A DNA stretch of 47,484 nucleotides from a virus. A model generated the notes under the pieces. It was not told the DNA's origin, searched no databases, and was given only the letters and a program-made list of their open reading frames with translations. Shown here one piece after another: positions 2,366-5,370 of this stretch. How positions within the stretch are numbered: position 1 is the stretch's first letter; each line of letters opens with the position of its first letter. The stretch is taken from IMG/VR virus record IMGVR_UViG_3300046665_000438, positions 1-47,484 of that record; one strand, written 5' to 3'. Made by a program: the position numbers and the translations under genes.

Positions 2366-2763
2366 GCATCATGGGGTACCCGTCACGCAACCAGCTCGAC
2401 CTGTTTCCGCAGCCCGGGAACTACGAGGAAGTCCACGGCGACCTCTACGATCGGCGCACCGGCAAGCGCCTGCGCACCGGGTACCGTGACGTGTTCTACC
2501 AGATCAACGACGGCCACCAACTGCGCGCCACGCTGCGCTTTCTGGAGGACGCCGTGGAAGGCCGGCGCTTCGTCTGCATCACCGACGAAGGCGGCGCGAT
2601 CTGCAAGTGTTGCATCCGCTCGATGCTGCGCGACCTGCTCTACGGCATGCGCCACCCGCGCAGTTGTCTGTTGCGGGTGGTGTCCACCGAACCCCGGTAC
2701 TCAGAACCGTTGCGCTGTGATTGCTGCGACGACGAAATCCCGCCGATCGGGGACAGGCCATGA
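2362..2763 (+). CDS. Cysteine-rich hypothetical protein, possible zinc binder (133 aa)
   Basis: Three in-frame ATGs exist at 2356, 2362 and 2371; I chose 2362 because it forms an ATGA overlap with the preceding stop. The C-terminal half carries Cys clusters: a CKCC motif near residue 82 and a CDCC motif near residue 120, with another Cys between. Two such clusters could hold a zinc ion, suggesting a small nucleic-acid or protein-binding domain. The family is not recognised. It overlaps the next gene by ATGA. Confidence 0.6.
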   Translation: MSIMGYPSRNQLDLFPQPGNYEEVHGDLYDRRTGKRLRTGYRDVFYQINDGHQLRATLRFLEDAVEGRRFVCITDEGGAICKCCIRSMLRDLLYGMRHPRSCLLRVVSTEPRYSEPLRCDCCDDEIPPIGDRP

Positions 2764-3032
2764 ATACCCAGCCATTAGCCGCGCAGATCCTCACCACCTG
2801 TCGAAAAGCTCGGGGGGAGGGGCAGTACCTGGACATCGACTTTATGCTGCCCTCGGTGCTGTATAACCGCGGCGCCGGCACCGAGTTCCACTTCCGGGAA
2901 GCGGGGGCACAGAACCTGTTCGATTACTACCGCCCGGTGGCTGAACAGACCGGCCTGCCTATGAAAGACGTGCTGTTGTGGGCCGCGCAGGAATGGGACC
3001 TGTCCGGCAACCGTCTCGATCTTGTGCTATAG
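2760..3032 (+). CDS. Small hypothetical protein (90 aa)
   Basis: The ATG at 2760 overlaps the previous TGA as ATGA, which fixes the start against a longer upstream frame. The product is soluble, with an aromatic-rich centre (His-Phe, Asp-Tyr-Tyr) and a C-terminal amphipathic helix. No motif is recognised. It is the last gene of the first early cluster; the next 158 bp are non-coding. Confidence 0.6.
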   Translation: MNTQPLAAQILTTCRKARGEGQYLDIDFMLPSVLYNRGAGTEFHFREAGAQNLFDYYRPVAEQTGLPMKDVLLWAAQEWDLSGNRLDLVL

Positions 3033-3190
3033 CTTTTAGCCAGAAAAGAAACGCAGCACGTAGCGTAGTCGAATCTAATAGGTTTGCCTCGGCAATATCA
3101 TTTTGTTGTCAAGGGCTTGAATTTAATTGAAAGACTAGGCAACGTACTGCCCACGGACTATCTGGCAACACAATAACTAGGGGGCCAAGA
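3033..3190 (+). other. AT-richer non-coding gap, possible promoter region
   Basis: This 158-bp gap is clearly richer in A and T than its neighbours and separates two gene clusters. It contains the second copy of the GACTATC / AATAACTAGGG pair near its right end. I looked for a -35/-10 pair and found TTGTCA at 3106-3111, but no good -10 box at the expected distance. The gap is a natural place for a promoter of the MvaT-like block, but the sequence does not settle this. Confidence 0.35.
3156..3184 (+). repeat. Shared intergenic motif, copy 2
   Basis: GACTATC (3156-3162) and AATAACTAGGG (3172-3182) repeat the words found at 1260-1281. Here the G run at the end also forms the ribosome site (AGGGGG, 3179-3184) six bases before the ATG at 3191, so part of the resemblance could reflect translation signals. 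Confidence 0.35.
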
Positions 3191-3790
3191 ATGGCTTTAA
3201 ATACAGGATCAGGGTTCAGCAATCTGACGCGAATGGAATCCCAAATACAGGCCGTGATAGCCACTTATGTAGCAGATCCCACCCCTAAAAATCAGCCCTA
3301 CGTTTCCAAGAAAAAAGAAGCCAGGCGCCAGCGAGAGGAACAGGAACGGCAACTAGCTTTGCTACGTTCAACCCCGCTAGATCAGTTAGATTTTGTCCCA
3401 CTAAATTCCGAACCTACTCAAGCCGCTACGGCCCAGTCCGAGTTAGCCGAGCTTGAGCAGCAGATGCGTATCGCGTTAGGGATTGACGTAGTCAAGCCTA
3501 CCGAAGGCGTCAAGGCTAAACCCAAATTAGCCGCGAAACCGATAGCTCCAAAGCCCCAAGTTACCGCCAAGCCCCGCGTTGAATTGCACATCGTCAAGCG
3601 CACGGTCGAGGTGCTACTGCGCATCAAACGTCCTGACGGTTTGGAACTCCCGTTCTTCCACGAAGCCACCGAAGGCAGCCGGCTTGAAGCCGAGTTAGCC
3701 GCCGAGCGCCAGGCGCGTGACTACGGGTTCAAGGTCTTGGGCCATATACAAACCACCATCAAAGAACAGGCTCTGGATCACTGTTCTTAA
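3191..3790 (+). CDS. Hypothetical protein beside the MvaT-like pair (199 aa)
   Basis: A strong AGGGGG site lies six bases before the ATG. The protein has a basic Lys/Arg/Glu-rich helical segment (about residues 38-55) and a second charged helix (about 80-95). A Lys/Pro/Ala linker (about 108-130) follows, then a compact C-terminal domain of strands and a helix. The layout of helix, basic linker and small terminal domain is loosely like H-NS-type proteins, but the NPHTGE signature of MvaT is absent. Codons such as TTA and CTA are used far more than in the flanking genes, as in the two genes that follow. Function unknown. Confidence 0.65.
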   Translation: MALNTGSGFSNLTRMESQIQAVIATYVADPTPKNQPYVSKKKEARRQREEQERQLALLRSTPLDQLDFVPLNSEPTQAATAQSELAELEQQMRIALGIDVVKPTEGVKAKPKLAAKPIAPKPQVTAKPRVELHIVKRTVEVLLRIKRPDGLELPFFHEATEGSRLEAELAAERQARDYGFKVLGHIQTTIKEQALDHCS

Positions 3791-3807
3791 CCCACCAAAT
3801 GTCTGCA

Positions 3808-3830
3808 TGGGCTGCCATATTGGCGGCCCA
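3808..3830 (+). terminator. Weak hairpin between the 199-aa gene and the first MvaT-like gene
   Basis: TGGGCTGCC (3808-3816) pairs with GGCGGCCCA (3822-3830) across a five-base loop, with one G-T pair. Only a short mixed T/G run follows, so termination would be inefficient. It may lower read-through or protect the upstream mRNA end. Confidence 0.4.
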
Positions 3831-3855
3831 TTCTGTATGCGTATAAGGGATGTTC

Positions 3856-4230
3856 ATGTCTAAATTATCAGAGTTTCGCGCAGCGGAAATAGAGCTGGGC
3901 AAACAACTTGCGGCCCTTGAAGCGCTGCGAAACGATTCAGCACTAAAGATGGAGATAGCATTTGAGTCGGCGCTAACAAAACTACTAGCTGACTTCGGCC
4001 TGACCCGTGACACGTTGCTAGACATCCTCGGTGCTAGCCCTGCCCAAGCCGCTAAGTCGTATGAGGTCCCAGGCAAGACACGTAAGACGTTGAAGCGTGA
4101 GATTCCCAAGACTTTTCTCAACCCGCACACCGGTGAAAAGATCACGGTGAAACGTCTCACCAACGGCAAATATCGGGGATGGGTTGAAAAGCACGGCGAA
4201 GTGATCGTGCAAAGTTGGCTGCAAGAATAA
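3856..4230 (+). CDS. MvaT/H-NS-like nucleoid protein, copy 1 (124 aa)
   Basis: The start at 3856 is preferred over the ATG at 3850 because AAGGGA (3845-3850) is then five bases away; the product is 124 aa, which matches MvaT as I remember it. Residues about 1-60 form the charged coiled-coil used by MvaT for oligomerisation. A basic linker follows, then a C-terminal domain with NPHTGE at 89-94 and a final Ser-Trp. MvaT-family proteins bind AT-rich DNA and silence foreign genes. In the DNA-contact loop (about 99-108) the usual Gly-Gly-Asn-His-Lys-Thr is replaced by a Leu-Thr-Asn-Gly-Lys version one residue shorter, so DNA preference may differ. Family assignment is firm; role is inferred. Confidence 0.85.
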   Translation: MSKLSEFRAAEIELGKQLAALEALRNDSALKMEIAFESALTKLLADFGLTRDTLLDILGASPAQAAKSYEVPGKTRKTLKREIPKTFLNPHTGEKITVKRLTNGKYRGWVEKHGEVIVQSWLQE

Positions 4231-4260
4231 GTCCGGCGCTAATTCAAGACTAAGGAAGTT

Positions 4261-4665
4261 ATGATGTTTGAGAAAATTGCCGAGTACACAGCGGCGGAAT
4301 TAGCGCTGGCTAAACAAGTCACCGCTCTGGAAGAACTCAAGAACGACCCCGAGTTGAAGCGAGAGTTAGAATTCAACTCAGAGTTAGAGGCCCTGCTGCT
4401 CAAGCATTCGTTCAGCAAAACTAAGCTGCACAGTTTCCTTGGGGCGCAGCTAGGGGCCGTCCAGGCCGCTGAAACGAAGGCTCCCCGCGCAGCCAAAGAG
4501 AAAGACAAAGATAAAAAGTACGCCAAGCACACCAACAAACTTTGGTCCAACCCGCACACCGGGGAAACTGTGTTGTCCCGCCGTCGCGATCACAAGACGT
4601 TGTTGAAGTGGACCGAAGAACATGGTCTGGAAGCGGTGATGTCTTGGATGACGCCGACCAACTAA
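4261..4665 (+). CDS. MvaT/H-NS-like nucleoid protein, copy 2 (134 aa)
   Basis: This gene lies 30 bp after copy 1 and is clearly its paralogue. It has the same AAE-x-x-L-x-K-Q start to the coiled coil, the same Asn-Asp turn near residue 29, NPHTGE at 97-102, and His-Lys-Thr-Leu-x-Lys-Trp at 111-117. A GGA site precedes two possible starts, 4261 and 4264. The linker (about 72-92) is very rich in Lys and Ala. The Gly-Asn pair that contacts the minor groove in MvaT is replaced by Arg-Asp (109-110). Members dimerise through the N-terminal coil, so the two phage copies could pair with each other or with the host protein. That could either silence phage genes or disturb host silencing. Confidence 0.87.
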   Translation: MMFEKIAEYTAAELALAKQVTALEELKNDPELKRELEFNSELEALLLKHSFSKTKLHSFLGAQLGAVQAAETKAPRAAKEKDKDKKYAKHTNKLWSNPHTGETVLSRRRDHKTLLKWTEEHGLEAVMSWMTPTN

Positions 4666-4684
4666 CCTTTCTCTGAGAAATCAC

Positions 4685-4915
4685 ATGGAAGCGAATCAAC
4701 ACCTGGCGATCTGGACCGTGATCGCCAACCCGGCGGACTACCCCGGGCTGTTTGTAGCCCGCAAGTGGCTGATGGTCGAAGGCAGGGAGGTACCCACCAA
4801 TGAAGTGGTGGTCGGCCTGACCTTGCAGGCTGTGCGCGAGCAGATCCCGATCGGCCTGCAGTGGATGCCCCGGTCTCCCGACGATGATCCGGTAATTGTG
4901 GAGACTTGGTTTTGA
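4685..4915 (+). CDS. Small hypothetical protein (76 aa)
   Basis: The 76-aa product opens with a Trp-Thr-Val-Ile strand, then Tyr-Pro-Gly and a Val-Ala-Arg-Lys-Trp strand. This is a pattern I associate with small phage proteins of unknown function in Gram-negative hosts. Base composition returns to the GC-rich style of the surrounding genome, so the low-GC block ends just before this gene. The ribosome site is weak. Its stop overlaps the next start as TTGA. Confidence 0.6.
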   Translation: MEANQHLAIWTVIANPADYPGLFVARKWLMVEGREVPTNEVVVGLTLQAVREQIPIGLQWMPRSPDDDPVIVETWF

Positions 4916-5370
4916 ACAGCATCGACGATGTACTGGCCCGTGCCCGCGCCGCCCTGCAGAACTCACCCACCAACAGCTCCCCGTTCAAGGTGATGCCCGC
5001 GCCCGTTCCGGGACCTGTCCCACGCCCCGGTCAGCGGAACGCTCCGCGAATCCCCAAGGAACTGCGGGTCGACTCGCGGGCAGCGGACAAGTTCGTGGTG
5101 CGCATGCCGGACGATCTGCGCGCACGGATGGCGCGGTTTGCCAACCAGCACAGGCGCAGCTGCAACTCCGAATGCGTCGAAGCCATGTATTGGTGGCTGG
5201 ATCGGCAAGAGCTGATGTGGCTGATGCTGCAAGGCATCGAACGCGAGTTGGCGCGGCAGGAAGTCCTGCGCCAGGGGGAGGAATTGAAGGCGCTGGACGA
5301 CATCGCCCAGCGTCAACCCGAGACCGCCGCCCTCATCAAACAATTGAAGGCGATGATCAGCCTGGGCTAG
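4912..5370 (+). CDS. Ribbon-helix-helix (Arc-type) DNA-binding protein (152 aa)
   Basis: Residues about 58-95 fit the Arc/MetJ ribbon-helix-helix pattern: a Lys-Phe-Val-Val-Arg-Met-Pro strand, a first helix with Leu-Arg-Ala-Arg-Met, then Cys-Asn-Ser-Glu at the start of the second helix. Such proteins dimerise and insert the paired strands into the major groove. The N-terminal 50 residues are Pro-rich and probably flexible, and the C-terminal 60 form a charged helix. The start is TTG at 4912, overlapping the previous stop (TTGA); a TTG at 4906 is an alternative. It is a good candidate regulator of phage promoters; the target site is unknown. Confidence 0.75.
   Translation: MNSIDDVLARARAALQNSPTNSSPFKVMPAPVPGPVPRPGQRNAPRIPKELRVDSRAADKFVVRMPDDLRARMARFANQHRRSCNSECVEAMYWWLDRQELMWLMLQGIERELARQEVLRQGEELKALDDIAQRQPETAALIKQLKAMISLG

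Follow-up and report, generated by a model that had tools for sequence, protein, structure and literature searches.

A conserved tandem pair of phage-encoded MvaT-family proteins in which the AT-pincer residues are replaced

Introduction

MvaT and MvaU are H-NS-family xenogeneic silencers of Pseudomonas. Single substitutions have defined residues on which MvaT depends. R80A and K108A reduce DNA binding more than tenfold, N100A and K105A reduce it more than threefold, and none of the four mutants represses cupA (Ding et al., 2015, PMC4466236). The window analyzed here, which is the whole 47,484-bp IMG/VR virus record IMGVR_UViG_3300046665_000438 (62% GC), carries two adjacent plus-strand genes that resemble MvaT and differ from it at the DNA-contact loop. 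We therefore asked whether both genes encode genuine MvaT-family proteins, whether the altered residues are a fixed property of a phage lineage, and what such a pair could do to silencing.

Results

The locus and its neighborhood contain the following features.

3033..3190, no strand assigned: AT-rich intergenic stretch, candidate control region (44% GC versus 62% for the record)
3191..3790, plus strand: 199-aa ORF upstream of copy 1 (no Pfam match; same place in the related loci L003, L004, and L009)
3809..3829, plus strand: GC hairpin directly 5' of copy 1, GGGCTGCC-ATATT-GGCGGCCC (RNAalifold)
3856..4230, plus strand: copy 1, MvaT/MvaU-family protein of 124 aa (NF041859, 87.4 bits; AlphaFold; Foldseek)
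4108..4218, plus strand: C-terminal domain of copy 1 with the loop KRLTNGKY (PF22055 below cut-off; gapless 2mxe alignment)
4264..4665, plus strand: copy 2, MvaT/MvaU-family protein of 133 aa (NF041859, 83.1 bits; PF22055; AlphaFold; Foldseek)
4537..4647, plus strand: C-terminal domain of copy 2 with the loop RRRDHKTL (gapless 2mxe alignment; RRDH invariant in five phages)
4685..4915, plus strand: downstream ORF of 76 aa (relatives in L003 and L004)
4906..5370, plus strand: downstream Arc-like ribbon-helix-helix protein of 154 aa (PF03869, 35.5 bits, cut-off 20.4; relatives in L003 and L004)

Both copies exceed the 75-bit cut-off of the NCBIfam MvaT/MvaU family model NF041859 and carry the NPHTGE signature, which confirms the first-pass annotation of two adjacent MvaT paralogues. 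Two orthologues of copy 2 fall just under the same cut-off (74.3 and 72.1 bits). The Pfam model PF22055 (MvaT_DBD, cut-off 27 bits) is passed by copy 2 with 32.3 bits, and is matched over its full length by copy 1 at a score under the cut-off. The two proteins are 36% identical to each other, and each has an alternative in-frame ATG, at 3850 for copy 1 and at 4261 for copy 2. Both also match PHROG 34034 (‘unknown function’) over the full length, making this group a candidate for relabeling as MvaT/MvaU-like.

The AlphaFold models of copy 1 (pLDDT 80.9) and copy 2 (pLDDT 84.4) have the same plan, in which a loose linker joins two coil helices to a C-terminal domain. The coil helices are predicted at residues 3–25 and 28–46 of copy 1 and at residues 2–26 and 29–47 of copy 2. 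The N-terminal coils of both copies match the solved MvaT-family coils 8h8h and 5b52 with E-values of 1e-6 to 5e-8, so the oligomerization coil is retained in both, as had been proposed. The segment LRDIIAILDP, which follows the coil in the MvaT family, is lost from both. The top Foldseek match of either model is the MvaT structure 2mxe, with 42 columns, an rmsd of 1.0, and a probability of 1.00 for copy 1, and 45 columns, an rmsd of 1.3, and a probability of 1.00 for copy 2. The E-values are weak (0.04 and 0.0018, respectively) because the match is short.

We then inspected the residues that contact DNA. The alignment of both C-terminal domains to 2mxe is gapless. The copy 1 loop KRLTNGKY lies opposite K97-G98-G99-N100-H101-K102-T103-L104 of MvaT (KGGNHKTL), and Arg108-Asp109 of copy 2 lie opposite Gly99-Asn100. 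The Arg-Asp replacement noticed in copy 2 thus stands, while the idea that the copy 1 loop is shortened does not, being ruled out by the gapless alignments to 2mxe and within the five-phage set. An intact Gly-Asn pair elsewhere in the loop, which had been named as the result that would speak against altered contacts, was sought and not found. Arg80, which forms the second arm of the AT-pincer, is replaced by Glu82 in copy 1 and by His in copy 2. In the lysine network, Lys108 is replaced by Val and Thr, respectively, and Lys105 by Leu in copy 2. Both copies retain Lys83 and the NPH[TS]G signature, and the net charge of the C-terminal domains ranges from -2 to +4.

Four further IMG/VR records of 73–84 kb, from related uncultured phages, also contain the tandem pair, and the replacements recur in all of them. 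Across the five phages, copy 1 has Glu at position 80 (MvaT numbering), Arg-Leu at 98–99, Ser or Thr at 100, and Val or Ala at 108, with Lys or Arg kept at 105. Copy 2 has His, Ala, or Gly at 80, Arg-Arg at 98–99, Asp at 100, and Thr or Ile at 108, with Leu at 105 in four of the five. Hence KRL[ST] and the Glu in place of Arg80 are fixed in copy 1, RRDH and the absence of Arg80 are fixed in copy 2, and the Arg80-Gly99-Asn100 pincer is absent from both copies in 5/5 phages. Arg enters both loops where other family members have Gly.

For comparison we took 122 other family members, encoded in Pseudomonas genomes, on plasmids (pCAR1 among them), and on other viral contigs. Arg80, Gly98, Gly99, and Asn100 are present in all 122 and Lys108 in 121. 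Retrieval of loci L010–L089 and L143–L187 used some KGGNH-containing patterns and may have been biased; the plasmid loci and L112–L140, retrieved without such patterns, likewise retain GGN. TKGGNH is found in 45/45 other viral MvaTs and Arg80 in 44 of them. Gly-Gly-Asn persists in far more divergent members, carried on plasmids of Halomonas and Marinobacter, so the lost residues cannot be put down to divergence alone. As far as these sequences go, the substitutions are not chance, being fixed in five phages and absent from the 122 other members. Two human-gut matches, MT838404 and MT835634, were considered as members of the group and rejected, as they are single copies with KGGNH.

The RRDH pattern was found in none of 299 Pseudomonas genomes, with the control pattern GGNH found in 50 of 59. 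A search of genome contigs with three copy 1 orthologues returned no pair in host genomes or prophages, and the H-NS/MvaT models matched neither of the nearest cultured phages, SHOU24 and Lana, the Lana search being one without a positive control. The suggestion that a duplicated pair is unusual for a phage is borne out by the survey, as 44 of the 45 other viral MvaT loci have a single copy within about 3 kb. L158, the only other viral locus with two nearby matches to the family model, has either a second gene or a split frame.

In the phylogenetic tree, the two copies share one clade (99/95), and the sequences of each copy group in a clade of their own within it. The uniting clade holds after the longest branches are removed (98/95); the bootstrap had yet to settle fully, and the stems of both copies are long. 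A single duplication within the phage lineage is likely from this topology, though not proven. Both coil and C-terminal domain are under purifying selection (dN < dS, with dS often near saturation). The best-conserved part of copy 2 is its coil (73–93% identical, dN 0.05–0.19), which suggests that copy 2 may be suited to a partner or decoy role. Compared with the most distant phage, copy 1 is 61–75% identical in the C-terminal domain and 33–39% in the coil, a pattern that would argue against a pure decoy. With dN < dS and both the coil and the domain fold intact, the two copies look like working proteins and not decaying ones.

The surroundings of the pair are AT-rich. All 15 of the lowest-GC 200-bp windows of the record begin within 2951–4501, a span made up of the 199-aa ORF's leader together with the cluster, so no other part of the phage is as exposed to a silencer that seeks AT-rich DNA. 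A block within the AT-rich intergenic stretch, TTTTGTTGTCAAGGG, is conserved in three phages and partly in a fourth. The 199-aa ORF, which has a weak match to a PHROG of the ‘replication’ category, precedes the pair in all three relatives read by ORF list. The hairpin between this ORF and copy 1 has 10 pairs, three of them with a compensatory change in at least one sequence (RNAalifold, five phages). Its T-run tail is present in the relatives but weak in this record, and the terminator scan did not report it. The hairpin is terminator- or attenuator-like and could serve attenuation or processing of the transcript. A sigma-70 promoter scan of 2700–5000 found none. An ORF of 138–148 aa lies directly after copy 2 in L004 (6408–6824), L003 (6781–7212), and L009 (6807–7253); it is missing here, where the next ORF after copy 2 starts at 4685.

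The record is classed in IMG/VR as linear, i.e. without end repeats, and is shorter than its phage relatives; it is therefore probably a fragment of a tailed phage of ~75–85 kb. Its major head protein is nearest to that of Vibrio phage SHOU24 and relatives (about 78–85 kb, 37–39% identity), and is also akin to those of the Pseudomonas phages Lana, PMBT3, and UAntarctica (81–88 kb, 35–36%). The DNA polymerase is nearest to the same SHOU24 group (33–36%). Replication genes occupy the plus strand and structural genes the minus strand. The MvaT pair sits in the block preceding the replication genes, which we take to be early. From the known range of the MvaT family (PMC7074111) and the phage relatives, we infer that the host is Pseudomonas or closely related to it. 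The five pair-bearing records, which may be incomplete, yielded no tyrosine integrase. Small resolvase-family recombinase genes are present in three of the four related phages (G005, G006, and G007), so a temperate lifestyle is possible.

Discussion

The two genes represent a branch of the MvaT family specific to phages, in which the coil and the C-terminal fold are kept and the AT-pincer, with which MvaT reads AT-rich minor grooves, is gone. This combination, pincer lost and coil retained, is consistent with entry into silencer filaments by proteins that do not grip AT-rich DNA. The explanation we prefer, at a little short of even chances, is that the two proteins co-assemble with each other and/or with host MvaT and thereby weaken or redirect AT-rich silencing. 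Specifically, both would be made early in infection, and their coils would let them assemble mutually and with host MvaT/MvaU. The filaments would gain subunits unable to grip AT-rich DNA normally, and the bridging and silencing of AT-rich phage DNA would be weakened or redirected, beginning with the cluster's own AT-rich leader. Copy 2 would be the coil-driven partner, while copy 1 probably still contacts another kind of DNA or a protein through its conserved rebuilt loop.

Co-assembly agrees with the replacement, in both copies of all five phages, of residues required in the MvaT mutants, and with the cluster being the AT-richest part of the record. Several observations pull the other way. 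Contact with host MvaT is predicted from coil similarity only, in a host that is itself deduced, and loss of the LRDIIAILDP motif could impair partnering with it. At 62% GC, most of the phage DNA would be a poor MvaT target, and the Arg-rich loops could still enter the minor groove. A conserved C-terminal domain would be superfluous in a pure decoy, yet that of copy 1 is its best-conserved part against the most distant phage; since the rebuilt domain is kept and conserved, a decoy role alone falls short as an explanation, for copy 1 at least. The main rival, which we hold possible at roughly one chance in three, is that the proteins build the phage's own re-specified chromatin apart from host MvaT, with rebuilt loops binding GC-richer, modified, or single-stranded DNA for packaging or for timing of phage genes. 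The invariance of KRL[ST] and RRDH indicates loops that are fixed and not eroded, and the Arg residues at former Gly positions and the copy 1 domain outlasting its coil in the distant phage point the same way. Lys108, however, is lost, Lys105 is mostly lost in copy 2, the domain charge is modest, and the DNA target is purely putative. A two-component variant, in which a captured silencer with two different loops would form mixed filaments of new specificity that take the place of host MvaT on phage DNA or overwrite it, appears rather doubtful.

The remaining readings are harder to reconcile with the data. The copies may be ordinary accessory silencers that bind and silence AT-rich DNA like Pmr and other phage MvaTs despite the substitutions. 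They do pass the family cut-off and keep the fold, Lys83, and NPH[TS]G, but residues that MvaT requires for repression are replaced in both, and all other mobile-element members examined, including Pmr of pCAR1, keep Gly-Gly-Asn, so that we regard this as unlikely. It is similarly improbable that the C-terminal domains have turned to binding a protein, such as a phage regulator or RNA polymerase, and that the coil serves dimerization alone; acidic residues do occupy DNA-facing sites in the five phages (Glu at Arg80 in copy 1, Asp at Asn100 in copy 2), but the neighborhood genes name no partner. That the copies are decaying or altered by chance and have no function is very improbable, as only their divergence from the family speaks for it, and the intact frames, dN < dS, the same altered residues in five phages, and the conserved gene order speak against it.

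The pair shares with MvaT/MvaU the plan of coil, linker, and C-terminal domain, the NPHTGE signature, the predicted fold, and the family score. It differs from them in that Arg80, Gly99, Asn100, and Lys108 are replaced and LRDIIAILDP is lost in both copies. Pmr of pCAR1 and other plasmid or prophage MvaTs are likewise MvaT proteins on mobile elements, and an interaction of Pmr with TurA and TurB has been reported (PMC7074111); unlike the pair, Pmr keeps GGN, as does each of the other mobile copies examined, and the other viral loci are nearly all single-copy. LUZ24 gp4 (Mip), with which a Pseudomonas phage relieves silencing by MvaT, resembles the pair in proposed outcome; it is described as an ‘electrostatic zipper’ that attaches to MvaT and prevents bridging (PMC8501957), whereas the pair members are themselves MvaT relatives. 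The proposed logic is also that of H-NST, a truncated H-NS of enterobacterial islands and an oligomerizing paralogue that antagonizes the host silencer (PMC5647153, PMC8501957). H-NST has no C-terminal domain, whereas both copies here keep a conserved one with new loops. H-NS of phage EPV1 and actinophage Lsr2 are further phage-encoded homologues of xenogeneic silencers (PMC3097231, PMC7074111); they belong to other families, and the portions of these sources consulted report no replaced DNA-contact motif. A literature search of partial coverage turned up no earlier description of a replaced AT-pincer in phage MvaT paralogues.

The pair is real, conserved, and unusual; phage-encoded MvaT is already known as a kind, and the replaced pincer sets these copies apart from the other members surveyed. 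Phage homologues of silencers are known, but this phage branch is the only part of the surveyed MvaT family to depart from an otherwise invariant set of minor-groove residues. The natural replacement in two paralogues offers a direct test of which parts of MvaT serve filament entry, bridging, and DNA choice. It also offers a test of whether phages counter silencing by altered copies of the silencer as opposed to unrelated inhibitors such as LUZ24 gp4. Judged from its residues and their conservation, the pair suggests a phage-built version of MvaT that may block or redirect the host's silencing of foreign DNA.
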